Origin: Methanofollis tationis
Lineage (GTDB): Archaea > Halobacteriota > Methanomicrobia > Methanomicrobiales > Methanofollaceae
Direction: 5' to 3'
DNA: 64,000 nt
Assembly (NCBI RefSeq): GCF_013377755.1
Contig: NZ_JABXWR010000001.1
Location: forward strand, 1,995,104-2,059,103
The notes under the pieces are model-generated. The model worked only from the letters and a program-made list of their open reading frames with translations, did no database searches and was not told the DNA's origin. Below are positions 7,285 through 61,251 of the stretch, piece by piece. The position numbers were made by a program, and so were the translations under genes. The stretch's first letter is position 1. Each line of letters opens with the position of its first letter.

Positions 7285-8991
7285 ATGGCAAAGATTGAGA
7301 GATCCCAGAAGCTTTTCCTGAAAGCACTCAAGGAGAAGTTCCAGGGACAGGACGTCCAGTCCGAGAAGACCGAGTTCTACAAGTTCAACGGCGTCCGCCA
7401 GTCCCCGAGAAAACTTGAGTTCATGAAGGAGTCCCGCTCCATCGAGATGCAGCGCGGTATCTCCATGTACGACCCCGAGCGCTGCCACCTCGGCGGTATC
7501 CCGATGGGCCAGCGCCAGCTGATGACCTACGAGGTCTCCGGCACCGGCGTCTTTGTCGAGGGCGACGACCTGCACTTCGTCAACAACTCTGCGATGCAGC
7601 AGATGTGGGACGAGATCCGCCGGACCGTCATCGTCGGCATGGACATGGCCCACGCCACCCTGCAGAAGCGTCTGGGCAAGGAAGTCACCCCCGAGACGAT
7701 CAACGAGTACCTGCACATCCTCAACCACGCCATGCCCGGCGGTGCGGTTGTCCAGGAGCACATGGTCGAGACCCACCCGGCGCTCACCGACGACTGCTAC
7801 GTGAAGGTCTTCACCGGCGACGACGAACTCGCTGACGAGATCGACGCCCAGTACCTGATCAACATCGAGAAGCTCTTCCCGAAGAAGCAGGCCGAGGAGC
7901 TCAAGGCCGAGGTCGGCAAGTCGATGTTCCAGGCAATCCACATCCCGTCCATCGTTTCCCGCACCTGCGACGGTGGTACCACCTCCCGGTGGTCTGCAAT
8001 GCAGATCGGTATGTCCTTCATCGCCGCGTACCGCATGTGCGCCGGTGAAGCAGCAGTCGCCGACCTCTCCTACGCTGCAAAGCACGCCGGCGTCATCCAG
8101 ATGGGTTCCATCCTTCCGGCCCGCCGTGCACGCGGCCCGAACGAGCCCGGTGGCATCAAATTCGGCCACTTTGCCGACATGATCCAGGCCGACCGCAAGT
8201 ACCCCAACGACCCCGCAAGGGCGTCCCTTGAGATCGTCGGTGCAGGCACGATGCTCTTCGACCAGATCTGGCTCGGATCGTACATGTCCGGCGGTGTCGG
8301 TTTCACCCAGTATGCGACCGCCGCGTACACCGACAACATCCTCGATGAGTTCACCTACTATGGTATGGACTACATCAAGGACAAGTACAACGTCGACTGG
8401 CGGAACCCGTCCGCAGCAGACAGAGTCAAGCCGACCCAGGACGTCGTCAACGACATCGCCACCGAAGTCACGGTGAACGCGATGGAGCAGTACGAGCAGT
8501 TCCCGACCATGATGGAGGACCACTTCGGCGGGTCCCAGCGTGCCGGTGTCATCGCCGCCGCGTCCGGCCTTTCCGTCGGTATCGCTACCGGCAACTCGAA
8601 CGCCGGTCTCAACGGCTGGTACCTCTCCATGATCATCCACAAGGACGCATGGAGCCGTCTCGGCTTCTTCGGCTACGACCTGCAGGACCAGTGCGGTTCG
8701 GCAAACTCCCTCTCCATGGAGCCCGACCGCGGTCTGATGGGCGAACTGCGTGGTCCGAACTACCCGAACTACGCAATGAACGTCGGTCACCAGGGCGAGT
8801 ACGCCGCTATCGTTGGCAGCTCCCACTATGGCCGTGGCGATGCGTTCTCCCTCGAGCCCCTGATCAAGATCACCTTCGCGGACCCCTCGCTGAAGTTCGA
8901 CTTTGCCGAACCCAGGCGCGAGTTCGCCAAGGGCGCGATCAGAGAGTTCATGCCTGCGGGCGAGCGCTCCCTGATCATCCCGGCCCGGTAA
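7285..8991 (+). CDS. mcrA: Methyl-coenzyme M reductase I, alpha subunit
   Basis: Catalytic alpha subunit, 568 residues from ATG 7285 ([11 protein letters not shown]); GGAGG just upstream supports it over the in-frame GTG at 7276. The McrA signature [20 protein letters not shown] is intact. By alignment spacing to the characterised Methanothermobacter enzyme, the modified positions are present: His267 (N-methyl-His), Arg281 (5-methyl-Arg), Gln418 (2-methyl-Gln), Gly463 (thioglycine, in GYDLQDQC), Asp468 and Cys470 (S-methyl-Cys). Whether each is modified here is inferred. Last gene of the operon; a T-rich stretch after the stop (about 9006-9013) may end transcription. This is the standard marker gene for methanogens and supports a Methanomicrobiales host. 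Confidence 0.99.
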
Positions 8992-43190: not shown

Positions 43191-43320
43191 TCTTCCAGTT
43201 ATCATCCCGAGAAAGAAATTTCTTTCTATGCTGCGCCAGGAACAGCCCCACACCATCGTGGTGCGAGAGCCCCCTGCCTGATGACAGAGGATGCGTGGGT
43301 GAAAAAGAGATAGACGCCCA
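43191..43320 (-). promoter_or_regulatory. CRISPR leader between cas2 and the newest repeat
   Basis: 130 bp separate the cas2 stop from the first leader-side repeat. A perfect 18-bp palindrome, AGAAAGAAATTTCTTTCT, lies at 43210-43227, 34 bp from the last spacer-repeat junction side and 20 bp from the repeat edge. A small hairpin (CACCA-TCG-TGGTG) is at about 43250-43262. An AT-rich GTGAAAAAGAGATAG stretch near 43300 could support a promoter. The leader should hold the array promoter and the site that directs integration. Confidence 0.8.
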
Positions 43321-44515
<1,195 letters not shown>

Positions 44516-44519
<4 letters not shown>

Positions 44520-45202
44520 ACCGGCCTGATGAGCAGCAGCCCGCAGCCGAAACTCTTCGCCGGCCCGATCCCGGCATACAGGGCCTGCTCAAACCGCTCG
44601 GGATCCGTCACCGTCAGCACACCGGTAAAATCGATGGTGCTGATCGAAACCCAGTGCTTCCCTTTCGGCTTCTTAAACCGGTGCTGCCGATATCCATCCG
44701 CCCGGACCATACCCTCTTCAACGGCAAACCCCGCCGCCTCAGACCTCGAAGACAACCAGGAAAACCCTTCCTTCTGGACAAGTATCTCCTGTGAGGGCAT
44801 GGCGTCGGATGGGCACCCGGACTGCTCCAGCAGCACTTTTGCATCCATCACCACATCGTGCCGGTGCTGCCTCCTCTCCTCGTCCCTCTTAGACCGTATG
44901 GGATTCGCTCTCAGGGAAAACCCGAAACGTTGCCCTGTCCTGAGCACCGGGTTGTACTCCTTCGACTCCACCGCCCAGATCCCGTCAAGATCCACCGGTT
45001 CTGCCGTTGACACTGCATAGATCACCGGTGACGCCTCCTGCATCTCCAGGCGGTAGATGAAATCGCGGTCCTTTCTCGACCCATCCGAAAAGATCCGCCA
45101 CACCATCCCGTGGACATCGTACGGATTCCGCACGCTCCGCCAGAAGGCTGGTGTTCGCTGGACGTCGTCCCGCAGGCGTATGCGGTAGATGGACCGCTTC
45201 AT
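44516..45202 (-). CDS. cas6e: Cas6e, crRNA-processing endoribonuclease
   Basis: Cleaves the array transcript within each repeat, leaving the 8-nt 5' handle, and stays bound to the 3' hairpin as part of Cascade. 228 residues from ATG 45202 (MKRSIYRIRLRDD). The probable catalytic His31 lies in NPYDVHGMVWRIF, equivalent to the Y-x-x-H-x-x-x-W region of E. coli Cas6e. The C-terminal Gly-rich loop GIGPAKSFGCGLLLI is typical. I reject the longer ORF start at 45262 because it adds 20 residues without likeness and overlaps cas5e, whereas 45202 gives an ATGA overlap with the cas5e stop. Confidence 0.96.
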
Positions 45203-45951
45203 CTGACCCCCTCCGGCACCTGCACCAGGGCCCCGTGTTCCTTGCGCTCCGTAAACTGCCACCGCCGCCGGTTCAGCGCAACATCGCGCCTCTGGACGGT
45301 CTGACTGCTCTCCACCGCAAAACCTGTATTCTCCTCATCTTCCCAGAAGAGCATTCCGCGCTCTTTACCGGCAATGGGGCTCATCATCCCTATATTCTGG
45401 AAAACTGCCGCCTCCATCGCCGCACGCAGGTTATCACCCCTGACGACCTGCGGCTGCAGCGGGAGCGCCACCGGGCAGGATCTCCGCCCCAGGTAAAGGG
45501 TGAATACCGGACTATTCAGCGCCTCCGCAAGTTCGGAGAGGAGATAGGGGGGATTTTCGGTCGCAGCCCGGATGCAGACCGTGTACAGTGCATCGCAGAA
45601 GTACTCCCGCGTCGAGAGGATCGTATTCAGGTCATCCCGGTGAATGCTCACCTCCTCCCGGCGGGTGGCAAACGGCCATGCCCGTTTCTTTGTTATCTCT
45701 GATGGCACCTGGGTGGTATGGTAGTCCCGGATCAGACTGCCCGGGGTATTCACCAGTACAGCCATTCGGTAACTCTCCTGCAGTTCTTTCAGATCTGCGG
45801 CATCCTCGCGGCGGATGCCCAGCGCTGCCGCCACCAGCCCGAAGATCGCCGACCTGGAGGGGTGACTCTCCGAAGGGCGATACTCTCCAACCGCCACACC
45901 GCCCCACGCGGCCATCGGGCCGAAGAGTCGGAACAGGAGATACTCAGGCAT
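45199..45951 (-). CDS. cas5e: Cas5e, Cascade backbone subunit
   Basis: 250 residues from ATG 45951 (MPEYLLFRLFGPMAAWGG). The start and the segment YRPSESHPSRSAIFGLVAAALGI are characteristic of Cas5e, which holds the 5' handle of crRNA at the Cse1 end of Cascade. Further matches are DYHTTQVPSEITKK and LYLGRRSCPVALPL. The start overlaps the cas7e stop by 8 bp; the longer frame to 45996 is unlikely. E. coli CasD is slightly shorter (about 224 residues). Confidence 0.96.
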   Translation of the reverse strand: MPEYLLFRLFGPMAAWGGVAVGEYRPSESHPSRSAIFGLVAAALGIRREDAADLKELQESYRMAVLVNTPGSLIRDYHTTQVPSEITKKRAWPFATRREEVSIHRDDLNTILSTREYFCDALYTVCIRAATENPPYLLSELAEALNSPVFTLYLGRRSCPVALPLQPQVVRGDNLRAAMEAAVFQNIGMMSPIAGKERGMLFWEDEENTGFAVESSQTVQRRDVALNRRRWQFTERKEHGALVQVPEGVR

Positions 45952-47080
45952 GGTCACCCGACACAAAGGTAAGGATCTCTTTGAGCGTACCCACACCCGC
46001 GGCAGCGTTCATCGTCATGGTATCCCTGGCGCACGCCCCGTAGGTCTTCTCCATATTCTCCCGCGTCTTCTCCAGGACATTCACTGCCGTCGTCAGGTAA
46101 TCCTCACCGCCGACGGGCTTGAGGAAGGCCACCGCGAGCGATCGCGGCTGCTGGCTCCCCCGCTCGGCAAGGATATAGGATGCATAGGCCCGCGAGGCAA
46201 AACTGTTCTGTTTCCCTTTTGGCCCAACCTTTGCCGCCGCCTCGGTGAGGGCAGCGATTGTCTTGTCAGCCAGTTCTGATTTCCCGCCCAGATTCTCCAC
46301 CAGAAGGTCGCGGTTGATGCAGAGGTACGCGTAATAGAGTCCGGCCGCAAACTCGGCCTGACCTACGTGCGCAGCACCGACATCCTCGATACCCCGGTTG
46401 AGGTCATCGACGGCGGTGAAGTAATCGTCCTCCACCGCCACACGGTGGACGGTGATCGCATGGGCCACCTGGACCGCCGCCTCACAGTTGAAAGAAGGCG
46501 ATGAAGCCAGCATCCTGCCGAACATGGCGATATCGACTGCCGAGTTCTCCTCCCGCAGAAGGGCGAGATCCTCATCTGATGGGTCTTTCCCGCTCTCGAC
46601 GAGGCGCGAGAGCAGTGCGTCGATCGCCGCAATCTCATCCGGGCTGAAATGAACCATCTGCTCGACACAGAGCGACTCTTTCTTCTTCTTCTCTGTGTTC
46701 TCCTCGTTTGAATCCTTGACAGATTTCAACTTTCCAAACTGAGCGGCGATCGCCTGGCCCCATTCCACTGCTTTCTTCTCCGCCACCCCTGTCCGCACCG
46801 GCGCCGCATCTCTCTCTTCAAGGACATCGGACAGTGCCTTTCCGCCTTTCATGGCAAGGTAGATGTTCCAGCCCATCTCTTTGGTGCGGATGCCAAGATG
46901 ATCGCCAAACGCTTCCTTAAATATCTCGGACGTGCGCCACGCCCGCTTCAGGCTCTGCGATGATACACGTAGTCTGCAGGCCCCGCCCATCATTGCGGTT
47001 TTCGGCCTGCCCAGGTCGTCACGGTTCAGGTTCGACGGGGGATACGATGCAAGCATATGTAACTGGATAAATTCTGCCAT
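45944..47080 (-). CDS. cas7e: Cas7e, Cascade crRNA-binding backbone subunit
   Basis: 378 residues. Six copies of this protein coat the spacer part of crRNA in type I-E Cascade. The start FIQLHMLASYPPSNLNRDD and RLRVSSQSLKRAWRTSEIF match CasC/Cse4. ELADKTIAALTEAA, GKQNSFASRAYASYIL and the C-terminal MNAAAGVGTLKEI fit as well. A Lys-rich insertion (NTEKKKKES) near residue 130 lies in the variable thumb/helical region. It starts 11 bp after cse2. Confidence 0.97.
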   Translation of the reverse strand: MAEFIQLHMLASYPPSNLNRDDLGRPKTAMMGGACRLRVSSQSLKRAWRTSEIFKEAFGDHLGIRTKEMGWNIYLAMKGGKALSDVLEERDAAPVRTGVAEKKAVEWGQAIAAQFGKLKSVKDSNEENTEKKKKESLCVEQMVHFSPDEIAAIDALLSRLVESGKDPSDEDLALLREENSAVDIAMFGRMLASSPSFNCEAAVQVAHAITVHRVAVEDDYFTAVDDLNRGIEDVGAAHVGQAEFAAGLYYAYLCINRDLLVENLGGKSELADKTIAALTEAAAKVGPKGKQNSFASRAYASYILAERGSQQPRSLAVAFLKPVGGEDYLTTAVNVLEKTRENMEKTYGACARDTMTMNAAAGVGTLKEILTFVSGDHA

Positions 47081-47091
47081 GTTTTTTCACC

Positions 47092-47601
47092 TCATTCTTT
47101 CTTCGGGATGTTCATGTAATACGACTCTGCCCACGCTCTTTTTGTCTTGGGGTCCCACCGGTACAGCCCCCACACCAGATCACGGATGTTCGCCTTCCGA
47201 TCGATCATTGTGACCAGCCGTTTCATCATCGGGAAGAGTTCAACATAGTCATAGTCCTCCACGCGGAGAAGCCGGCGGAACCGCGCCTCACTCACCCGTG
47301 CAGTTGCCCCCCCATCTTTCGGGTGGGCGAACTGTGCGGCAAGCCTGACCCCATCGGCGGATGTTTCAACATCTGCAAGGACTCCTGCAATCACAGCAAG
47401 TTTCTCGCGGTCCCATGTTGGCAACGCCGCCTTCAACCGGTAGTAGGCTGGAACAAAGGCCACCTCTGCCGGCGTCCGGCAGCGCCGCAACTCCGCCCGC
47501 TCCCCGCGGTGGGCCTTGATCTCTCTCCACCAGTTGAGGATCGCGTCCATAGGTTCGTCCTTATGGCCTGAATCCTGTACCGTATTCTCTGTCATTGTCA
47601 T
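47092..47601 (-). CDS. cse2: Cse2 (CasB, Cas11e), Cascade small subunit
   Basis: 169 residues, an all-helical basic protein present as a dimer along the belly of Cascade, where it steadies the displaced DNA strand. RAELRRCRTPAEVAFVPAYY and RFRRLLRVEDYDYVELFPMM correspond to the conserved basic segments of CasB. The start overlaps the cse1 stop by 4 bp. A short N-terminal extension (TENTVQDSGHKDEP) looks disordered. Confidence 0.94.
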   Translation of the reverse strand: MTMTENTVQDSGHKDEPMDAILNWWREIKAHRGERAELRRCRTPAEVAFVPAYYRLKAALPTWDREKLAVIAGVLADVETSADGVRLAAQFAHPKDGGATARVSEARFRRLLRVEDYDYVELFPMMKRLVTMIDRKANIRDLVWGLYRWDPKTKRAWAESYYMNIPKKE

Positions 47602-49235
47602 TTCTCACCCTTTACGGATTTTTTCGGTTCAGGGAGGTTAAGCGCCTTCCTGATCGCTTTGTTCGCCTTTGAAGCAGGGCTTTTCATCAACCCCCACGCC
47701 TTCATCACCCTCTGAGCATTGATCTCGTCGATCGAGTTGATCTGAGAATACTCCTCGAAGAGGGTGCGCCCCTCCTCCTGGAGGATGCCGAGCCATGCCT
47801 GCCGGAGTTCGAGGGTATCCCCGTTCCCAGCGAGGCATTCGGCGACCTTGTTGAGCAGATCGTAGAACCTCTCCTCGGTCGCCTGGAGGAAGCGGGCGTT
47901 GATGACCGAGAGGTCGCCCTTCACATCTGCGGGTTTGTCATAGAGGGCAATCTTCACGCACCACTGGACGTTCTTCGCCATCTCAGAGGCGGCCCGGATC
48001 ATCCCGGCCGCCGTCTCCTCAAACTCCGCCTTCCAGTCATCATCGACATGGACCATTGGCAGGGTGCCCTCGTACCAGCACCTGACCTTTTTGTTTTCCA
48101 TATCATAGCCAAAGGCCCATATCGACGGCCGCCGGCCGAGGTGCTCCCTGACCTGAGATCTCTCTGCACGCTCTGGGAAGAGGGCAACATTTTTTGCAAC
48201 CCGTCTCCCTTCATTCCGGTCGTTGATGACCAGGCCAAGCCAGTTCTGGTAGGTTATCCCACCGGGTTGGGGATGGACAGGCAGGTATTCGGTGCCTTTT
48301 TTATCTTTTGGATAATACGGGCTGAGGGGGTGGACCCACCCGTTGTACTTCATTCCGTAGGGTTTCGTCCAGAAGCCCGTGATGCACCGGTCTGTTTTTG
48401 CGCCGCAGAGATCGCAGACTCCAGGCCTGGCTCCCTCCAGATCGAGCAGGATGCGGCGCGGCATCCCCCAGAAGGCCTGGCAGGGGTGTGCATCCTCAGG
48501 CTCTGTACTATCCCCACCTTCACTTGTCTTCACTTTGCCCATCCAGGGGAAAAGCCGGTCGTCGTCAGCTGAGGGGTTTTCGTCCACCGGGTGAGTATAA
48601 TTGTTCAGATCAATGATGTTTGCCCATACCGTCTGCCAGAGCGTCTCACCAAGGACGAGGGTGGTCATCGGGCCACCCCCCCTGATCGAGGTCATGTGCC
48701 CGCGTCCACCGCTCGGCGCGTTCGTCTGGAGGGTGAACAGTGCCAGAGAGGCGCAGTGGGGACAGAGGGCGTCGATTGTCCCTCTCTTCTGGAACCAATC
48801 TGTGTTATCCTTGATCTTTTCTTTTTCTGGCATCCCGATGAGAAGACTATCGATCTGCCAGAGTCTGTCGCTCTCTATCCCTCTCTCCTGCATGAACAGA
48901 GGGCCGTCTCCTCCAATGGCAAATGCCCCGGTCAGGGGGGAGAAGGCGGCCTGCAGTTTATCCGGGAGTGGTGGGTTGACTAAATTTTTTCTCCATTCTC
49001 CTTTGTCCTCTGGTGGAATTGCAGTCTGGCAGAGTCCTATAAGGAACTGGACCAGCGCTCCATCGAAGTCAGGTCGAGGAGATGCTATTGATCTAACGAA
49101 GTTGCCGTCGTGCTGGTCGGTGATCTGCCAGGGGGCGATTGTTTCGGTTGTGCCGTCTTTACGGATGATCGGGATCCAGGGATCCTGGATCAGGTTGAGT
49201 GGAGGAATGGTACCCCTCCGAGTTTTTCTATACAT
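47598..49235 (-). CDS. cse1: Cse1 (Cas8e, CasA), Cascade large subunit
   Basis: 545 residues, the subunit that reads the PAM, opens target DNA and recruits Cas3. The start LNLIQDPWIPIIRKDGTTET is the classic CasA beginning. Two cysteine pairs, CPHC (near residue 165) and CDLC...C (near 280), suggest a zinc-bound domain as in some bacterial Cse1 proteins. The C-terminal four-helix bundle region is present (QINSIDEINAQRVMKAWGLM). Somewhat longer than the E. coli protein (about 502). It starts 52 bp after the cas3 stop; that gap is AT-rich and could hold a secondary promoter. Confidence 0.97.
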   Translation of the reverse strand: MYRKTRRGTIPPLNLIQDPWIPIIRKDGTTETIAPWQITDQHDGNFVRSIASPRPDFDGALVQFLIGLCQTAIPPEDKGEWRKNLVNPPLPDKLQAAFSPLTGAFAIGGDGPLFMQERGIESDRLWQIDSLLIGMPEKEKIKDNTDWFQKRGTIDALCPHCASLALFTLQTNAPSGGRGHMTSIRGGGPMTTLVLGETLWQTVWANIIDLNNYTHPVDENPSADDDRLFPWMGKVKTSEGGDSTEPEDAHPCQAFWGMPRRILLDLEGARPGVCDLCGAKTDRCITGFWTKPYGMKYNGWVHPLSPYYPKDKKGTEYLPVHPQPGGITYQNWLGLVINDRNEGRRVAKNVALFPERAERSQVREHLGRRPSIWAFGYDMENKKVRCWYEGTLPMVHVDDDWKAEFEETAAGMIRAASEMAKNVQWCVKIALYDKPADVKGDLSVINARFLQATEERFYDLLNKVAECLAGNGDTLELRQAWLGILQEEGRTLFEEYSQINSIDEINAQRVMKAWGLMKSPASKANKAIRKALNLPEPKKSVKGEK

Positions 49236-49287
49236 AGTTTTACCATTGATTTTCCTCTTAATACGCCATCACATAAATACTGATCGA

Positions 49288-51960
49288 TCATGGGGCCGTC
49301 CTCATCAGTCCAACTTCCTGATGATACCTCAGCATGACTTCTTTGCCTGAATGGTTCAATGTGGATCCCTCCCAGCCCTCTTCTGAAGAATGAAGGGGAA
49401 CAATCACGGCATTCTTACCCATGTCCGCCATCCGGCTCTTTGCCCTCTCCACCGCCCCGGCGAGCGGCTGGGCAAACGCTACCTCACTGGCGGCATAGGT
49501 CTCCCGCACGCTCACCTGGCTCAGTTCCCATGCAGCCCGGGGATCAGGTGCGTCAGCCCACGGCCAGACTTCTTTTCCATCCCACCGGGCAAGCCGCAGG
49601 GTGACTGTTGGTTCTCCAAGGCGGGTTGGCGTCCGGGCATCGCTCTGCCACTGGCCTTCGGTCATCGTATACCCCTTTTTGAGCTTGAGGGCACTTTCCG
49701 CTGCAAAAGAAGCGTCGGCATTATCCTTTCCCCGATTTTCTGCGGCAGCCTTCTGTAAGCCGTCAGGGATCACACCCTCACTCTCCGGTCCGAAGACAGA
49801 CTCGATGAGGATACGGGCATCGCGCGGCACAACAATCTCGCCTCTCTCCCCCAGGATCCCGGCCGTCAACCAGAGTCGAGCTGGATCGGGATACACCCAT
49901 GCCCCCCGAGGGAAGAGGTCAGAATACCATGTCGCACCTGGCTCTTCTGTCTGCAGCGGTGAGAGGACGATGAGCCGGGCCTCCCCGCGGGGGCCGCGAT
50001 CATGGCGATGGACCCTGCCTGCCCGCTGTATCAGAAGGTCAATTGGGGCGAGATCGCTCACCATCAGGTCGAAGTCGAGGTCCAGAGATTGTTCCACCAC
50101 CTGTGTTGCCACAAGGATCCTGCCTGCCCGAACTTCCGGCGTGCTGGCCTTTCCAAAAGTCCGGGTCACTGTCTCCTCAATCTCCAGACGGTCAGCGAGG
50201 GCGAACCTGGCATGGAACAGGCGGACTGTACCCGCCGGAAGCCTCTCCTTTAACCGGATATATGCTTCTACGGCGTCGTCCACCGTATTCCTGACCCAGC
50301 AGGCGCACCCGCCGTTCTGTGCCTCTTCGATGAGTGCTGCCTCCGCCTCATCCTCTGATGAGACGAGGCTGACTCCCACACGTTTCTCCCCAATGGCGGT
50401 GAGAGGGTGTTCGTCCGGCGGCCCGGCCAGCGAGAGGTGGGTGATCAGGGGATAGCCCCCTGATGTAAGTATCCCGATCGGCCACCCTGCCCCCCGTGCA
50501 AAACGCCTGGCCAGCTCTTCCCTCTGCCTCTGTGTCATCGTTGCCGAGAGCAGGATCGCACTCCCGCCTGATGCGGCATGGAACTCAAGGAGGACCTGCA
50601 AAAGTTTGTGCATATAGGAGTCGCAGGCATGCACCTCGTCCACGATGAGAATATTTCTGGCCAGACCGATCAACCTGAGCGACTGGTGATGCACCGGGAG
50701 GATGGAGAGAAGTGCCTGGTCGACCGTCCCGACGCCGACCTGTGCGAGCAGCGCTTTTTTCCGGTTGTCGGAGAGCCATGCTGTCCCGGGATTTCTCGAC
50801 CCGATTCTCTCATCAAGGAATGTCTGCATAACCCTCTGGAGCCGGCTGGCAGAATGGGCAAGGACCTGAGAGTACGAACGCTCCTCGAAGAGGGAATCTG
50901 ACGTTCTGTTGATCCGGGAGTACATGGCATTGGCAGTCGCCATCGTCGGCAAAGCAAAATAAATCCCTTCTCCGTCTCCCTGTGCCATCATCCGGTGAGC
51001 GAGGGTGATGGCCGCCTCAGTCTTGCCGCTCCCGGTGATATCCTCGATGACGAAGAGGTGGGGGCCGGTGCCGAGGGTGCAGGTGGCACAGTAGTGCTGG
51101 AGATCAGTCGGGGCATGTTCCGGAAAGATAGAGGGAAAAAGGATCTCCAGACCCTGTTCACTGGCAGGTCTGACCGGTATGATGCCTTTTTCCCTGACGG
51201 CCTTCTCGGCTCGTTTCAGTGAGACCTCCCAGTAAGCGGTGAGGGGTGTATGCTCCTGGGTGAACCTGAAATAGTCGCGGTCTGATCCGATCCAGTCGCA
51301 GAGTGTGCAGAACCCGGCAAGGAGCCATGAAAATTGAGGGACTCTCTTTGCAAGGTCGTCTTTGGCCAGGAGGGGCCAGGTACCGTCCACGAAGAAGAGA
51401 GAGGCGCAGTCTTGAACGAATGTCTCTGCCGCCTCGATATCTGCCGGGAGAAACGAACGTCTGAAATGGCTGAAGTCCCCTGCCGGTGGGGTGCCGTGGT
51501 GCCCACAGACGGCCTTGAGGAGGGGGAAGAGGACATCCTGCCACTCATCGCTATCGAAATCTCCATCCAGTCTGATCAGGTTTTTTTCAACCACGCTGTC
51601 CCAGAGTATCTCGTTCCAGAGTGCGAACCCCAGATCGCTGTGGTGTCCGGGTATGCAATCCCCTTCTATACCCTGGAGAGATGCTGATGCCCGGGAATTC
51701 TTCAACTGGAAGGCTGGCGTGGAGAACTTTCCAATATCGTGGGTGGCAAGCAGAAAACAGATGAGTGGGGTCAGCTGATCAGAGCTGACCTGCAGAACGC
51801 CTGCCATGCGCTCTCGCAGAAGTGCGTCGCGGCCCAGGATCACCGAACCGACAGCGGCTACGTCAAGGGCATGATAGGGCAGAAGGTGGGTGATCCGGGG
51901 TTCATTCTCTCTCGGGCTCTTGCCCCAGTACCGGAAATAGGGCGGGGGTGAGGAATCCAT
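49288..51960 (-). CDS. cas3: Cas3 helicase-nuclease
   Basis: 890 residues, degrades DNA flagged by Cascade. An N-terminal HD nuclease domain has H30 (LLPYHALDVA), H74-D75 (ATHDIGKFS), HH at 106-107 and HH at 154-155 (VCGHHGTPPAGD). The superfamily 2 helicase follows: Walker A ITGSGKTEAAI at about 308-318, DEVH at 441-444, SAT at 472-474, and motif VI QRAGRVHRH. A C-terminal domain completes the fold. All key motifs are intact, with no internal stop. First gene of the cas operon; a TATA-like box lies about 85-100 bp upstream. Confidence 0.98.
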   Translation of the reverse strand: MDSSPPPYFRYWGKSPRENEPRITHLLPYHALDVAAVGSVILGRDALLRERMAGVLQVSSDQLTPLICFLLATHDIGKFSTPAFQLKNSRASASLQGIEGDCIPGHHSDLGFALWNEILWDSVVEKNLIRLDGDFDSDEWQDVLFPLLKAVCGHHGTPPAGDFSHFRRSFLPADIEAAETFVQDCASLFFVDGTWPLLAKDDLAKRVPQFSWLLAGFCTLCDWIGSDRDYFRFTQEHTPLTAYWEVSLKRAEKAVREKGIIPVRPASEQGLEILFPSIFPEHAPTDLQHYCATCTLGTGPHLFVIEDITGSGKTEAAITLAHRMMAQGDGEGIYFALPTMATANAMYSRINRTSDSLFEERSYSQVLAHSASRLQRVMQTFLDERIGSRNPGTAWLSDNRKKALLAQVGVGTVDQALLSILPVHHQSLRLIGLARNILIVDEVHACDSYMHKLLQVLLEFHAASGGSAILLSATMTQRQREELARRFARGAGWPIGILTSGGYPLITHLSLAGPPDEHPLTAIGEKRVGVSLVSSEDEAEAALIEEAQNGGCACWVRNTVDDAVEAYIRLKERLPAGTVRLFHARFALADRLEIEETVTRTFGKASTPEVRAGRILVATQVVEQSLDLDFDLMVSDLAPIDLLIQRAGRVHRHDRGPRGEARLIVLSPLQTEEPGATWYSDLFPRGAWVYPDPARLWLTAGILGERGEIVVPRDARILIESVFGPESEGVIPDGLQKAAAENRGKDNADASFAAESALKLKKGYTMTEGQWQSDARTPTRLGEPTVTLRLARWDGKEVWPWADAPDPRAAWELSQVSVRETYAASEVAFAQPLAGAVERAKSRMADMGKNAVIVPLHSSEEGWEGSTLNHSGKEVMLRYHQEVGLMRTAP

Positions 51961-54764: not shown

Positions 54765-55775
54765 CTATCGCTCGGCAGCTTGCGCTTTGAGGGTAAGAAG
54801 TTGCCTGAAGTTGAAATTCATGCAGGAGAAGATGTTCTTGACGTGCACTCTGGCAACCGTCGTGACCATGAGGTGGCCTGCATGGAACACCCGCTTGATC
54901 ACGGCAAACGGTCGTTCCACCAGCGATCGTGTTCTGCTGATGGCCTTGTTCCGCCGGTTCTCCTTGATGGAGAGGGGATGGTTGCGAACGGCCCGGTGCA
55001 TGGTCTTGTCCATAGATGCCTGCGGTTTCACCCCAAAATAGCCTTTATCGCGATAGACCGTCTCACCTTCCCGGGAGAGATCGATCCTGCTGTCATGGAG
55101 TGACGCCGTGGTGGTCTCAATCCGGCGGATCAGCTGACTGTCCTTGTCGAGCAGGATGTGAAGTTTGTACCCGAACTGTGACTTCGAGCCCTTCTTGGCC
55201 CAGGTGCCGTCGCGGCTGCGCCGCGTCTCTGCCTGATCTCCCCGGGGCGTGCCGGCAGGAGCATGCCCGGGATCGGCGGTGATGAACGTCGCGTCCTGCA
55301 TGACACCGCGTTTGATGGCGAGCCCTTGTACTTCGAGTTGCCGCTGGAACTCATCCCAGATCGCGGTATCCTTCCCGGTTTGCGCCAAGCGTTCCCGGAA
55401 CAGCCAGACCGTCGACCGATCCGGAATGGTTTCCGGATATCCCAGGAAGTGACGGAACGAGATCCGGTCGGTCGCCTGACGCTCCAGTTCGGGGTCAGAC
55501 AGGCCATACCACTGCTGAAGCACCAGCAGCCGGATCATCAGAACGACGTCATAGTTCGGACGGCCGCCTCGCCCCTCGGCGTTGGTGTAGAGGTCAGCAA
55601 GGAGAGGGCGGAAGGCATCCCAGTCGATCAGACCGCTGACCTCACCCAGCCGATCACCCAGAGCTGCAAGGCTGGCATATTCGTGGTGGATCGCGAAATT
55701 GGTAAACGTGCTCATGGGAAAAAGGTCGATCCGGGACTATAAAGTACTTTGGGTGAGGTGGGGTTGTTCGAAATT
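54720..55775 (-). mobile_element. IS5-type insertion sequence (ends approximate)
   Basis: One intact transposase gene defines the element. Terminal inverted repeats were not resolved, so the limits are set loosely from the transposase and the return of other features on the right (promoter of the gene at 55832). IS5 elements of this kind are usually 1.0-1.2 kb. Confidence 0.6.
54765..55715 (-). CDS. IS5-family transposase
   Basis: 316 residues, full length, no internal stop. The DDE residues are visible: Asp in MQDATFITADPGH, Asp in VYRDKGYFGVKP, and Glu in RTRSLVERPFAVIKRVF. The N-terminal part (FRPLLADLYTNAEGRGGRPN, VVLMIRLLVLQQWYGLSD, FRHFLGYPETIPDRSTVW) is typical of the IS5 group. The reading frame is intact, so the element may still move. 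It sits between the cupin gene and the giant beta-helix gene, on the opposite strand to both. Confidence 0.95.
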   Translation of the reverse strand: MSTFTNFAIHHEYASLAALGDRLGEVSGLIDWDAFRPLLADLYTNAEGRGGRPNYDVVLMIRLLVLQQWYGLSDPELERQATDRISFRHFLGYPETIPDRSTVWLFRERLAQTGKDTAIWDEFQRQLEVQGLAIKRGVMQDATFITADPGHAPAGTPRGDQAETRRSRDGTWAKKGSKSQFGYKLHILLDKDSQLIRRIETTTASLHDSRIDLSREGETVYRDKGYFGVKPQASMDKTMHRAVRNHPLSIKENRRNKAISRTRSLVERPFAVIKRVFHAGHLMVTTVARVHVKNIFSCMNFNFRQLLTLKAQAAER

Positions 55776-55831: not shown

Positions 55832-58800
55832 ATGGTTACAGCCCCCGGGGTGGAGAGAATTCTCCATCCAAGACTCCTTTTTGCGCTGATGGTGCTTATC
55901 TGCGCTCTGCTGATGGCACCAGCAGCTGCTGTGGTCCTTCCTGACAGGGTCGCCGTGAACGAATCGTACACTGACCAGACGCCCGACTACGGTTACCTGA
56001 ACTTCTCCAGCATCCAGGACGCCATAGACGGCGTGGCGACGGGCGGCGAGGTGTGGGTCCATAACGGCACATACCGCGAGGCCCTCGTGATCGACCGGAG
56101 CATGAGCGTCATGAGCGTCTCCGCACTGACGGCCCTTGACCAGAAGAGACCGGTCATCGACGTCCCCGGCGATGCGATCGGTGTCGAGATCACCGCAGGA
56201 AACGTCACCTTCAGCGGTTTTGAGGTCGCCAACGCCACCGAGATCGGCATCTTCGCCCATGGCGCCGATGCCGTCTCCATCGAGCACAACTACGTCTCTC
56301 TCCTCAACGAGACCAGCCCGTTCACCTGCGGCATTCTCGTCGAGGACGGCGCGGGGGCCTGCATAGGCGACAACGAGGTGCTTGTCATTGGAAACGGCCA
56401 TCAGATGGGTGTCACCCTCGAAGGGGCAACCGATGCCCGCGTCCGCGACAACCGCGTCCTGGCCGTCTCGCGGGACCCGGCGGTTGGGCCGGTCGGCGTG
56501 GGCGCCGTCAACCCGGTCCTTGCCGCCCTCGTTCCCGAGGATAACGAACCGCTCTCCACCATGGAGGCGGAGTACGTATCAATGGTGCCCGCCGGTGTCA
56601 CGGTCCTGGAGAGCGCCTCCGTTATCGTCGAGGGCAACCGGGTCCGGGCCCTGGGTCTCTGCGACGAGGTTGAAGGGGTATACGCCTCCGCCAACGCATG
56701 GGGTATCAGATCCTGCGATTCTGAGCGTGTGACGATCATCGAGAATGACGTCTCCGTCGTCGGGGTTGCAGCCAATGCAACCCGGACGGTCGGCATCCAC
56801 GGCGCCGGCGATCTCACCCTCATCGAAGGCAACACCGTCGAGATCTACACCGAATCCCGGGTTGTCCAGCCGGTCGGCATCCGCCTCGGCTATGCTGAGA
56901 AGGGGCGGGTCCTCAACAATACCGTCTCTGTGGAGGCAGAATGCGCCAGCACCGCCGGGAACGATGGGAGGATGAGGGCTTCAGGCATCACGGCCTTTGA
57001 CTCCTTCAAGGCCCAGGTCACCGGGAACGACATCTCCTCTACCCTCTTCGCCAGCGGGTCACCCGAAACCTGCCGCGTGGCGGTCGAGGGCATTTATATC
57101 GAGGAATGTGACGGGTGCCGGGTGAGCGAGAACATCGCCGTCGTGGAGAGTACGACAATCCGGGACCTGGCCCGCGACGGTGATGACTGCCTGCTCCGGG
57201 TGTTCGGCAGCGTAAACGGCATCGACGTCTATGCGAGCGACGAACCCGAGATCCTGGAGAATGTCGTCGAGACCTTCGGCGGCGTGCTCTCCTATGGCAG
57301 AGGGACGCCGGACGAACCCTTTGCAGGCATCGCCGGCGAACTCATGATGGCCGGCATCTCTGTCCGGAGTGACGGGGATGAACCCGTCCTGAGCCCGGTG
57401 GTCGACGGGAATGCGGTCTCTGTTTCGGCGCAGAGCATGACGCTTCTCGGGTCGCTCCCCGGCGTGCTCGGCTCCGCCCTTGCAGAGAACAGCGACCTCC
57501 AGGCCAGGTACGCCGCCATGGTGGCGGCGAAGGACAACCGGGCCTCTGCGCTCTCCGCCTTCGAGGAGGTTGAAGGTCTGGACGTCGCTGAGAGCAGCGC
57601 CCTTGCCTTCGAACCGCAGATCAACGAGGCGTGCCTCGCCCAGGTCCGCACGGTGACGGCCGGCATCGTCCTCGAAGGCGTCCTGGATCCAACGGTCTGC
57701 CGCAACACCGTCCCGGTATTCCTGAACACCGTCTCCCTTGTATCCAGCCGGCCGATCTCAGAAGAGGCGACGGCACTCTTTGAGGGCGCCAGGCCGCTCG
57801 GGCTCATCGAGCGGGCCTTTGCCGGCGAGCAGATGCAGCAGGCCGCCGTCCTCAGCCTCATCGACGAGAACGGCGATGCGTGGCAGAACCTCCCGGCAGA
57901 GGAGAGGGCGGCGATCACTGACGCCGTCATCGACGGCGACGCCGACGCCCTTGCACTCTATGCCGAAACCGACGGCCTCTTCCCCGCGGGATCCGGCGTG
58001 GACGAGATCATCGCCGGCTACGGGGAGGCCCTTGAGAGCGATGAACTGCTCGGGTTCCTGAACGCGACCCGGCTTGCAGCCGCGGTCCCGGTCTCGATGA
58101 ACTACGGCCTCCTCTACACCGCCGAAGGTGAGACGCAGGTCTATGAGAACACCTTCTCGGTCCTGACCACGAGCATCGGGATCGCCGTTGCCGAGAGCGA
58201 GGGCGCCGATGTCCCAGACGCCGCCGCCGGATCGGCCGGTCTCGTGACCTCCTTCGGCATCATCGGGACGAGCGATGCGGCCACGCTGGCGGAGAACACC
58301 ATAGAGGTGGGCACCAGCGGCATATACCTGAACATCGCCTCTGGCAGCGATATCGAGACCTCGGACGCAGCGGCCGGCACCGCCCACCTCTTCCTCGCGG
58401 CGGGGATCTGTGCAGACGGCGATGAGAGCCTGGTCCGGGGCAACGACATCACCGTCCTGCAGACCACGGAGGCGATGGCCGAGGCGGTCGCCCGGGTAAA
58501 GGGCCGGATGGCCCTCAGTGTTGCGGCCACAGCGGGCGTGGGCGTCGGCATCGTCCTTGACTCCGGCACGATCCTGAACGCGGAGACCTACGCCCCCGTT
58601 CCTCCCATGATGGACGATGTGTTCGGCGATGTCATCCAGGGCAACACGGTCTCGGTCACCGACGAGATCGCCGTCGCCTCGATCGCCGGGATGCTGCTCG
58701 CCCCGCCCCTTGACGGATCTTCCCATGCCCTCTCTGCGGCGGTCGGCGCCGCGGCGAGTTTCGGTATCGTCGCACCCGAGGCCAGCGTGCTGGACAACAC

Positions 58801-60034
58801 CGTCAGCACCATCGCAAGCCAGAACAGCATGGCCATTGCAGAGGTCACGGACCTCTCGGATCCTGTCACCCAGGCGGCGGCCTTTGACCTGCCCGGTGCC
58901 GGGGCTGCAAACCTGGGGATCGCCGTGTCCGGGGGTATCGTGACCCTGCGCTCATGCATCACGAACAACACCGTCTTCACGGCGGCGAACGCCGAAGAAA
59001 TTATCGAGGCGGCGACTGAGGAACTCCTCGAAGACGCCCGCTTCCTCGGCGTTGTCGGGGCGGTCGACGTCGGCATCGTCAGCCTGAACCCCTCGTACAT
59101 CGACGCGAACACCGTGGACGGCGAGGCATGGGCTGCCCTGGTGGGCATGTTCCAGGGCGACCGGGTGGACGGCGATATCCTGGGCATCGCCCTGGACCTC
59201 GGCATCCTCTCGGTGGGCGGCGACGCCACCTTCAACACCATCTACAACGGCTATGCAGGCTTCCCGTACTCCTATGAAGGGGAGGTCTTCGAGCCCTATG
59301 CCACCCACAACTGGTGGGGCGACGCGAGCGGCCCGTCGGGCAGCGGCCCCGGGACCGGGAGCCCGGTCTACGGCACCGCCCTCTACGAACCCTGGCTGAC
59401 CCGGCCGGCTGACGTCGTCCTCGAGACCGGGAAGTCCTATTTCGGGCTTGAGATCGGGTCGCCCTTCATCGGCGGCGACGGTTACCGCGCCGGGCTTGAG
59501 CCCGGATGGAACACCCTCTCGTTCCCGCTGGCGCTCGAGAACACCACCTGGCAGGCGGTCGCCGGCCTCGGCGACGGCCTCGATTACGCCGTCGCCTACT
59601 CCTGGGACGCGGCCACCCAGACCTGGGTCCAGGTGACCGATGCGAGCAGGATCAACCCGCTCGATGCGGTCTATATCAGAATGAACGACTACGACCGCCT
59701 GCCGGTCCAGATCAGCCCGGAGATCACGAGCCCGCCGACCCGCACCCTCGAGGCAGGGTGGAACCTGGTCGGCCCGGCCTATGCCCTGGTCGGCCTCCCT
59801 GAGCCGATCGGCCAGGCGTACTTCTGGTGGGGAGAGCCCTACGGGACGTCGGTCACGAATGCCCTGACCACCGTCGAGTACACGCCTGACGGCCGCGACG
59901 GATACGCCGTCGTCGTCTCCCCGTCGATCAACCCCGAGGCCTGGGTCTTCACCCGCGGGGACGATGCATCTCCTCGGGTGGCGACATTAACACCGCAATC
60001 CCTGGGTCTTCACCCGCGGGGACGATGCACCTGA
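55832..60034 (+). CDS. Giant secreted parallel beta-helix surface protein, C-terminus frameshifted
   Basis: 1400 residues as read. Residues about 14-36 are a signal peptide (LLFALMVLICALLMAPAAA). Residues about 50-1180 are right-handed beta-helix repeats (NosD/PbH1 type), with recurring turns such as IEGNTVEI, VSENIAVV, VQGNTVSV and LDNTVSTI. The HNWWGDASGPSGSGPGTGSP segment closes the helix, and a C-terminal beta domain (LEPGWNTLSFPLALENTT, LEAGWNLVGPAYALVGL) follows. The last 23 residues as read are out of frame: a 61-bp insertion (see 59940-60029) shifts translation to a stop at 60034. The restored frame would run to the stop at 60138-60140, 7 bp before the next gene. Likely an envelope or exopolysaccharide-binding protein; ligand unknown. 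A TATA-like AAATATTATGG lies near 55781. Confidence 0.85.
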   Translation: MVTAPGVERILHPRLLFALMVLICALLMAPAAAVVLPDRVAVNESYTDQTPDYGYLNFSSIQDAIDGVATGGEVWVHNGTYREALVIDRSMSVMSVSALTALDQKRPVIDVPGDAIGVEITAGNVTFSGFEVANATEIGIFAHGADAVSIEHNYVSLLNETSPFTCGILVEDGAGACIGDNEVLVIGNGHQMGVTLEGATDARVRDNRVLAVSRDPAVGPVGVGAVNPVLAALVPEDNEPLSTMEAEYVSMVPAGVTVLESASVIVEGNRVRALGLCDEVEGVYASANAWGIRSCDSERVTIIENDVSVVGVAANATRTVGIHGAGDLTLIEGNTVEIYTESRVVQPVGIRLGYAEKGRVLNNTVSVEAECASTAGNDGRMRASGITAFDSFKAQVTGNDISSTLFASGSPETCRVAVEGIYIEECDGCRVSENIAVVESTTIRDLARDGDDCLLRVFGSVNGIDVYASDEPEILENVVETFGGVLSYGRGTPDEPFAGIAGELMMAGISVRSDGDEPVLSPVVDGNAVSVSAQSMTLLGSLPGVLGSALAENSDLQARYAAMVAAKDNRASALSAFEEVEGLDVAESSALAFEPQINEACLAQVRTVTAGIVLEGVLDPTVCRNTVPVFLNTVSLVSSRPISEEATALFEGARPLGLIERAFAGEQMQQAAVLSLIDENGDAWQNLPAEERAAITDAVIDGDADALALYAETDGLFPAGSGVDEIIAGYGEALESDELLGFLNATRLAAAVPVSMNYGLLYTAEGETQVYENTFSVLTTSIGIAVAESEGADVPDAAAGSAGLVTSFGIIGTSDAATLAENTIEVGTSGIYLNIASGSDIETSDAAAGTAHLFLAAGICADGDESLVRGNDITVLQTTEAMAEAVARVKGRMALSVAATAGVGVGIVLDSGTILNAETYAPVPPMMDDVFGDVIQGNTVSVTDEIAVASIAGMLLAPPLDGSSHALSAAVGAAASFGIVAPEASVLDNTVSTIASQNSMAIAEVTDLSDPVTQAAAFDLPGAGAANLGIAVSGGIVTLRSCITNNTVFTAANAEEIIEAATEELLEDARFLGVVGAVDVGIVSLNPSYIDANTVDGEAWAALVGMFQGDRVDGDILGIALDLGILSVGGDATFNTIYNGYAGFPYSYEGEVFEPYATHNWWGDASGPSGSGPGTGSPVYGTALYEPWLTRPADVVLETGKSYFGLEIGSPFIGGDGYRAGLEPGWNTLSFPLALENTTWQAVAGLGDGLDYAVAYSWDAATQTWVQVTDASRINPLDAVYIRMNDYDRLPVQISPEITSPPTRTLEAGWNLVGPAYALVGLPEPIGQAYFWWGEPYGTSVTNALTTVEYTPDGRDGYAVVVSPSINPEAWVFTRGDDASPRVATLTPQSLGLHPRGRCT
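59940..60029 (+). repeat. 61-bp insertion: 28/29-bp direct repeat around 32/33 bp of new DNA
   Basis: Bases 59940-59968 and 60001-60029 are identical over 29 bp (begins CCTGGGTCTTCACCC, ends GGGGACGATGCA). They flank a unique 32-bp segment, 59969-60000. Removing 61 bp restores the beta-helix reading frame, so the ancestral state had one copy. The dimensions equal one repeat plus one spacer of the window's own CRISPR array. Confidence 0.9.
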
Positions 60035-60140
60035 TATGGACGCCACCTGCGGCTACTGGGTCTCCATGGAGAACCCCGCTACCCTTGCCGGGTTCTCCAC
60101 CACCCCTCTCCCCATGCCCGAATGGGCGTGGAACCTGTGA
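60001..60140 (+). pseudogene. Disconnected C-terminal coding remnant of the beta-helix protein
   Basis: From the second copy of the duplicated segment, the frame that matches the first copy reads WVFTRGDDAPDMDATCGYWV, then SMENPATLAGFSTTPLPMPE and WAWNL, ending at a stop at 60138-60140. This is a sensible ending for the upstream protein (CGYWV and TLAGF are common in such C-terminal domains), now one frame off. It contains no start of its own. Confidence 0.8.
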
Positions 60141-60147
60141 GGCAATC

Positions 60148-61251
60148 ATGACGCGAATACCAGCACACGCAATCATCGCGGCGCTCATCATCGCCGCAAG
60201 CCTCCTGGTCGCCCCGGCGCTCGCGAGCGAGGGCGCCCCGTCGACGATCCCCCATGCCTTCTACGGGCAGGTCTATGGCCCGGACGGCTCGAATGCGCCC
60301 GCCGGGTCGATCATCGTCGCATCGGTGGCGGGGAACGAGGCCGGGACGATCCTGGTCGCCCCGGCCGGAGCGTACGGGACGGCATACGGCGGCGGTGCAA
60401 AACTCGTCGTCTGGACGCCTGCCCTGCAGTCGGGCGAGAACATCACCTTCTATATCGACGGCGTGCGTGCGGCGGAGTCGGCGCTCTTTGAGAGCGGCGG
60501 CGTCACAAACCTGACCCTGACGGCGAGCGCGGCCCTGCCGAAGGAGCGCCCCGGCGAGAGCACGACGCGGCCGGTCAACGCCACCGGCGGCCAGTCCGTT
60601 ATCGTCGACGGCGGCGGAGCTTCGGCGGTCCTGACGACGACCGGGGACTTCCAGGGCGAGACAATCGTCTTCACCCTCTTTACGGCGGCGCCTGACGACC
60701 AGCCCGTCCCCCCGGGCACCCGTGACGTCGGCCGGTTTGCCGAGATCACGAGCACGATCGGGAATGACAACATCCAGAAGGTGATCGTGCGGGTCCACTA
60801 CACCGACGCCGACGTCGTCGGGATCGATGAGTCCTCCATCCGGCTCTACTGGTGGAGCACGACCGGCGCCTGGGAGCAGCTCCCCGGCGGCGTCGACACC
60901 GGCGCAAATGTCGCCTGGGGCGAGACCGACCACTTCTCGACCTTCGGCCTCTATGGCGCGGCCTCGAAACCGGCGCCCGGCGGCGGTGGGAGTGGAGGCG
61001 CGGTCCCGGTCGTCACGCCCACCTCTACGGTCACCCCGGTGGAGACGACCCCGGTGGAGGCGATCCCCACCCTGGCTGACGCCCCTGAGACCGGAGCGCC
61101 TCTGGCGGCCGTGACCGGGACAACCGGAGCCGCGGCGCCTGTGGAGGGTGAACCGGATGCAGGAGCGGCCGAACCCCTCCCGGTGACCGCGGTCGTACTC
61201 GTTGTCGTTGCGATCGCCGCGGCAGGGTTCCTGCTGCTCCGGCGGATCTAA
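60148..61251 (+). CDS. Membrane-anchored secreted surface protein
   Basis: 367 residues from ATG 60148 (MTRIPAHAIIAALIIAASLL); the longer frame from 60025 is out-of-frame text of the upstream gene. Signal peptide to about residue 29 (APALAS). An Ig-like region follows (HAFYGQVYGPDGSNAPAGS, VVWTPALQSGENITFYIDG), then a beta domain (KVIVRVHYTDADVVGIDESS, WEQLPGGVDTGANVAW) like those in archaeal S-layer-associated proteins. A Pro/Thr-rich stalk (about 285-330) and one C-terminal helix (VTAVVLVVVAIAAAGFLLL) with RRI form the membrane anchor. GAGG lies 6-9 nt ahead of the start, overlapping the ancestral stop of the beta-helix gene, so the pair was an operon. Function unknown. Confidence 0.85.
   Translation: MTRIPAHAIIAALIIAASLLVAPALASEGAPSTIPHAFYGQVYGPDGSNAPAGSIIVASVAGNEAGTILVAPAGAYGTAYGGGAKLVVWTPALQSGENITFYIDGVRAAESALFESGGVTNLTLTASAALPKERPGESTTRPVNATGGQSVIVDGGGASAVLTTTGDFQGETIVFTLFTAAPDDQPVPPGTRDVGRFAEITSTIGNDNIQKVIVRVHYTDADVVGIDESSIRLYWWSTTGAWEQLPGGVDTGANVAWGETDHFSTFGLYGAASKPAPGGGGSGGAVPVVTPTSTVTPVETTPVEAIPTLADAPETGAPLAAVTGTTGAAAPVEGEPDAGAAEPLPVTAVVLVVVAIAAAGFLLLRRI

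Follow-up and report, generated by a model that had tools for sequence, protein, structure and literature searches.

How did a short piece of unrelated DNA, bounded by two copies of host sequence, come to lie within a surface-protein gene of Methanofollis tationis? The question arose from a 64,000-nucleotide stretch of the genome, referred to here as the window (G000:C1:1995104-2059103), which forms part of a 2.2-Mb contig in a genome that is 99% complete. Methyl-coenzyme M reductase is encoded in this genome, which is therefore that of a methanogenic archaeon; the alpha gene of the enzyme is present in two copies (G000:C1:885316 and C1:2003363, the latter at about 8260-8661 of the window). 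A sequence-only reading of the window had described a 29-bp duplication around unrelated DNA in a beta-helix gene, had pointed to an intact Cas1e-Cas2e pair and an array of 61-bp period in the same window, and had read the insertion as a CRISPR spacer integrated off target. It had also proposed that relatives be compared at the locus, that the genome be scanned for like duplications and that a source of the insert be sought.

The duplication was found to be exact. The 29-bp sequence CCTGGGTCTTCACCCGCGGGGACGATGCA occurs at 59940-59968 and again at 60001-60029 (window coordinates), and the 32 bp between the copies (59969-60000) read TCTCCTCGGGTGGCGACATTAACACCGCAATC. The features of this locus, site 1, are as follows:

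55832-60034, plus strand: gene for a predicted beta-helix surface protein, 1400 aa as it stands, apparently truncated by the insertion (Pfam Beta_helix, NosD)
59940-59968, plus strand: target-site duplication, copy 1, 29 bp (or 28 bp + 1); resembles the repeat, with crRNA sense on the plus strand; single copy in the relatives G002 and G016
59969-60000, plus strand: putative misplaced spacer, 32 bp, without a match elsewhere in the searches made
60001-60029, plus strand: target-site duplication, copy 2, 29 bp, exact repeat of 59940-59968

Just upstream of the beta-helix gene lies an IS5-like transposase gene (54765-55715), named from its sequence.

We compared the locus with its counterparts in relatives. 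The closest congener, the sister species G002, aligned with the window as two pieces, 59201-59968 (93%) and 60001-60600 (96%), which overlapped by exactly 29 bp; in this alignment G002 carries one copy of the 29 bp without the insert. One copy without the insert was likewise found in G016, which belongs to another family of the same order. The 61 bp at site 1 are therefore a derived insertion. The base that abuts the first copy, 59939, is G in the window and T in both G002 and G016. It was considered as an integration scar and rejected, since sequences that diverge by 4-7% would be expected to differ at single bases anyway; it is probably an ordinary substitution.

When the 61 bp are removed, the beta-helix frame runs on to a TGA at 60138-60140, 7 bp ahead of the ATG at 60148, as the sequence-only reading had stated, and the uninterrupted frame of G002 stops at the equivalent position. 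The insertion causes a frameshift by which the final 36 residues are exchanged for 21, SPRVATLTPQSLGLHPRGRCT; the frame of G002 continues through ...GDDAPDMDATCGYWVYMENPATLAGFSTTPLPMPEWAWNL. The insertion is thus a C-terminal truncation of what is predicted to be a beta-helix/NosD-type surface protein, and the earlier wording “gene-disrupting” holds for this truncation but not for more than that.

The window was confirmed to hold a complete type I-E system, with the adaptation genes 16 kb from site 1. The operon spans 43321-51960 on the minus strand, and both cas1e and cas2e are intact, the former with the expected Cas1 motifs. Its components, together with the array, are the following:

20647-43190, minus strand: type I-E CRISPR array with 368 repeats, whose crRNA-sense sequence is GAGTTCCCCACTCGCGTGGGGATGAACCG; degenerate repeat at the left end
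43191-43320, minus strand: leader region separating cas2 from the array; its end next to the first repeat reads ...GATAACTGGAAGA (assigned from position and orientation)
43321-43617, minus strand: cas2e (Pfam Cas_Cas2CT1978, E 8.8e-35)
43605-44519, minus strand: cas1e (Pfam Cas_Cas1, E 5.6e-12), with an 18-letter motif and DIAD, which, as in E. coli Cas1, would contain the catalytic residues E, H and D
44516-45262, minus strand: cas6e (Pfam CRISPR_assoc, E 4.2e-48)
45199-45996, minus strand: cas5e (Pfam Cas_Cas5d, E 4e-43)
45944-47080, minus strand: cas7e (Pfam Cas_CT1975, E 1.1e-94)
47092-47601, minus strand: probable cse2/cas11e, assigned by gene order and position, with no Pfam match
47598-49235, minus strand: cse1/cas8e (Pfam CRISPR_Cse1, E 3.1e-112)
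49288-51960, minus strand: cas3 (Pfam Cas3_HD, Cas3-like_C_2)

Within the array, 354 of the 367 spacers (96%) are 32 bp long, so that one unit measures 29 + 32 = 61 bp, the very geometry of the insertion at site 1 and of the second site described below. Thirteen repeats deviate from the array consensus at the last base only (crRNA sense), which suggests that this base derives from the prespacer and that the duplication made at the array is one of 28 bp plus 1; the last repeat base comes from the prespacer in E. coli. Both off-array sites, by contrast, show 29 identical bases, which would be explained either by a coincidental match of one base at both sites or by a stagger of 29 bp.

In order to find comparable structures, the whole genome (2.25 Mb) was scanned for exact direct repeats whose length was 18 bp or more and whose spacing was 20-140 bp. 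Outside the type I-E array 43 such repeats were obtained, most of them low-complexity tandem repeats or parts of a second CRISPR array (G000:C1:18428-18905) with the 36-bp repeat GTTGCAGAAGGGTTCCACGAAAAAAAGGATTGCAAC; a second, distant Cas1 is encoded at C1:35396-35830. The 29/32/61 geometry occurred outside the array at exactly two places, site 1 and the following:

G000:C1:1952202-1952291 (L112:11802-11891), outside the window: site 2, a 29/32/61 insertion with the duplication CGAACCCCCCCTCCGGGTGGGGGGTGGAC around the insert ACCCCCTGCCCTGGGATAACCTGAAAATAATT

A relaxed scan of the genome returned no further site of this geometry, only low-complexity or coding repeats. No off-target duplication of 36 bp, the repeat length of the second array, was found. 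Site 2 lies about 103 kb from site 1, between what read from the sequence as divergent frames. In G002 the duplicated stretch of this site, too, is present once, and in the more distant G007 the whole stretch is absent. The duplications of the two sites are unrelated to each other in sequence, as are the inserts, and their lengths are identical; what the sites share is therefore a ruler and not a sequence. The same 29/32 ruler applied to two unrelated sequences points to an enzyme that measures both lengths, and to our knowledge Cas1-Cas2 is the only enzyme known to do so.

G002 serves as a natural control, as both of its sites are empty and neither type I-E repeats nor Cas1e were found in its genome, where the only Cas1 is a distant one of another system (28% identity). 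Close relatives of Cas1e (76-92%) were present in five congeners. One of these carriers of type I-E, G005, showed no 29/32/61 site in the 400 kb that were scanned.

If the inserts are misplaced spacers, they would be expected to stem from invading DNA, or from a plasmid or chromosome, with a PAM beside the source sequence. Insert 1 occurs once in its own genome and insert 2 is equally unique, the next best places matching at 23/32 and 22/32 positions, respectively. Neither insert was thus copied from the host genome, which answers one half of the search that had been proposed; the other half, a virus or plasmid that carries the sequence beside a PAM, gave no candidate. A search of 232 class genomes that tolerated up to 3 mismatches gave no match to insert 1, and insert 2 had none among 12 genomes of the genus. 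In IMG/VR neither insert was matched by exact cores or by patterns degenerate at third (wobble) positions, and the best matches in phages and plasmids (22 bp at 95%, E 0.3 or worse) were at chance level. A 21-mer match in an unrelated bacterial MAG of the genome collection was set aside, as its identity stops short of the full 32-mer and lies at chance level. Insert 1 is also unlike every spacer of the resident array. A PAM could not be derived, as the array gave no phage match and none of its spacers matched the host genome at up to 5 mismatches. Spacers without a known match are usual in archaea, and the missing source therefore neither supports nor refutes a spacer origin.

We then asked whether the two targets resemble the place at which the array itself would receive spacers. 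The register was set by the ends of the duplications, with only the strand chosen, and the reference consisted of the last 4 leader bases (-4 to -1) and the 29-bp repeat. Site 1 matched this reference at 15/33 positions and site 2 at 18/33 (13/29 and 15/29 for the repeat alone). The joint probability of such matches, given first for the summed matches and then for the 12 positions at which both sites match the reference, was 8.5e-5 and 5e-6 against random places in the genome, 1.2e-4 and 1e-5 against GC-matched places, and 6e-4 and 4e-5 against shuffled references. Three leader lengths (4, 6 and 10) were tried in the joint test, with P at most 2.1e-4 in all, and no neighbouring register outscored that of the duplication ends. 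Site 1 by itself resembles the repeat weakly (P about 0.03, GC-matched). Taken jointly, the two targets resemble the native leader end and repeat, with a joint P of about 1e-4 to 1e-5. The “mild” likeness to the repeat noted earlier is real but was understated, being stronger once the exact register is used, the leader end is counted and the two sites are scored jointly. Both sites have AG at leader positions -3/-2, and an inverted repeat is present near the centre of site 2, less clearly at site 1. In E. coli the binding site of Cas1-Cas2 comprises leader positions -1 to -4, and in vitro Cas1-Cas2 alone integrates outside the array, specificity being conferred by IHF (PMC10011333).

A repeat-length duplication, a spacer-length insert, an empty site in a relative, resident machinery and a leader-repeat-like target were thus all found, and we consider it highly probable (roughly 0.9) that both 61-bp insertions arose by off-target full-site integration by Cas1e-Cas2e. 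The reading proposed from the letters of the window is in this respect borne out by the empty sites, the non-host inserts, the second site, the lack of type I-E in G002 and the resemblance of the targets. According to this proposal, type I-E Cas1-Cas2 would place a processed prespacer of 32-33 bp not in the array but at a chromosomal site that looks like the leader end followed by the repeat. The two 3′ ends of the prespacer would attack opposite strands about 28-29 bp apart, and repair of the gaps would copy the intervening 28-29 bp, leaving a repeat-spacer-repeat structure. At site 1 this would throw the beta-helix gene out of frame, and an independent event of the same kind would have taken place in the divergent intergenic region about 103 kb away.

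Duplication around foreign DNA is also the general signature of transposition, and a transposase gene (the IS5-like one) lies in the window. The insertions might accordingly be very small mobile elements or their remnants, for which a transposase or another recombinase would have generated the long target-site duplication. We regard this as very unlikely: the inserts share no sequence and have no terminal inverted repeats discernible by eye, yet are equal in length, each is unique in the genome, and we know of no IS that makes 29-bp duplications around a 32-bp insert. A slightly less probable explanation is replication slippage or error-prone repair, in which a duplication would be formed with templated or random filler. 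Direct repeats with filler do arise at repaired breaks, and the genome holds other repeats of the ABA type with different geometry, such as two 34-bp copies that lie 9 bp apart (C1:246676). Here, however, the filler is not templated by the genome (best non-self matches as given above), and slippage or repair would have had to arrive twice, independently, at exactly 29 and 32 bp, the lengths of the CRISPR unit, and at targets that resemble the repeat in that register. Least probable of all is an artefact of assembly or sequencing, for both insertions, known here from the assembled sequence, are unique and lie within a single 2.2-Mb contig in a genome that is nearly complete, neither insert has a second copy as a source of misassembly, and each insertion is exactly one CRISPR unit long yet contains no native CRISPR repeat.

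Most of what is known of off-target integration by Cas1-Cas2 comes from overexpression in E. coli and from in vitro work. Nivala, Shipman and Church (2018, Nat Microbiol, doi 10.1038/s41564-017-0097-z) reportedly described it for the E. coli type I-E Cas1-Cas2, together with putative natural examples from Yersinia pestis and Sulfolobus islandicus. The integration described there reportedly shares with our sites a repeat-length duplication, a spacer-length insert, a position outside the array and leader-repeat-like targets. The expectation that a natural gene-disrupting case in an archaeon would be new therefore holds only in part, since natural off-target integration had already been proposed, including in an archaeon. 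The present events differ from that work in that they are natural, involve a type I-E system in a methanogen and number two in one genome, in that neither site is occupied in a sister species lacking the system, and in that one event truncates a gene. As a kind, off-target integration is known, and cases with clean before-and-after evidence are rare; what is new here is the methanogen type I-E system, the two events per genome, the empty sites in a system-free sister species and the truncated gene. Passages of PMC9456107 and PMC11788318 cite Nivala et al. 2018 for integration outside arrays. In Streptococcus thermophilus, ectopic spacer acquisition takes place inside CRISPR arrays (PMC7999890); there, as in our proposal, the adaptation machinery picks a wrong target, but that target lies within the array, whereas here it is ordinary chromosomal DNA.

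Compared with a canonical type I-E unit of the same genome, both sites have the same 29 + 32 bp but the duplicated stretch is host sequence, matching the repeat at the 13 or 15 of 29 positions reported above, and there has been no growth beyond one unit. With a single unit per site and duplicated stretches in which 14-16 of the 29 bases depart from the native repeat, the two sites are probably not working CRISPR loci.

Two natural events within one genome, with empty sites in a sister species that lacks the system, indicate that off-target integration occurs in nature and can alter a gene, and they bear on how new CRISPR loci start. The target rules of such integration can be read from the sites, and genome comparison becomes a means of measuring the rate at which an archaeal integrase acts in this way and the targets that it prefers. 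We would tentatively go further and suggest, as a possibility that we hold to be rather doubtful, that in archaeal type I-E systems, where no IHF is expected, spacer misplacement may be frequent enough to act as a recurrent natural mutagen, altering genes and seeding mini-CRISPR loci at hairpin-bearing, leader-repeat-like sites.

Two minor observations concern the type I-E repeats and spacers themselves. On the viral contig IMGVR_UViG_3300025308_000004 (L150:1740-1764) a lone type I-E repeat, GTGTTCCCCACTCGCGTGGGGATGAACCG, was noted with no second copy beside it, and within the resident array the spacer ATACGCGTGCAGGGCGCTTGTTTGGGTGCTGC is present twice.
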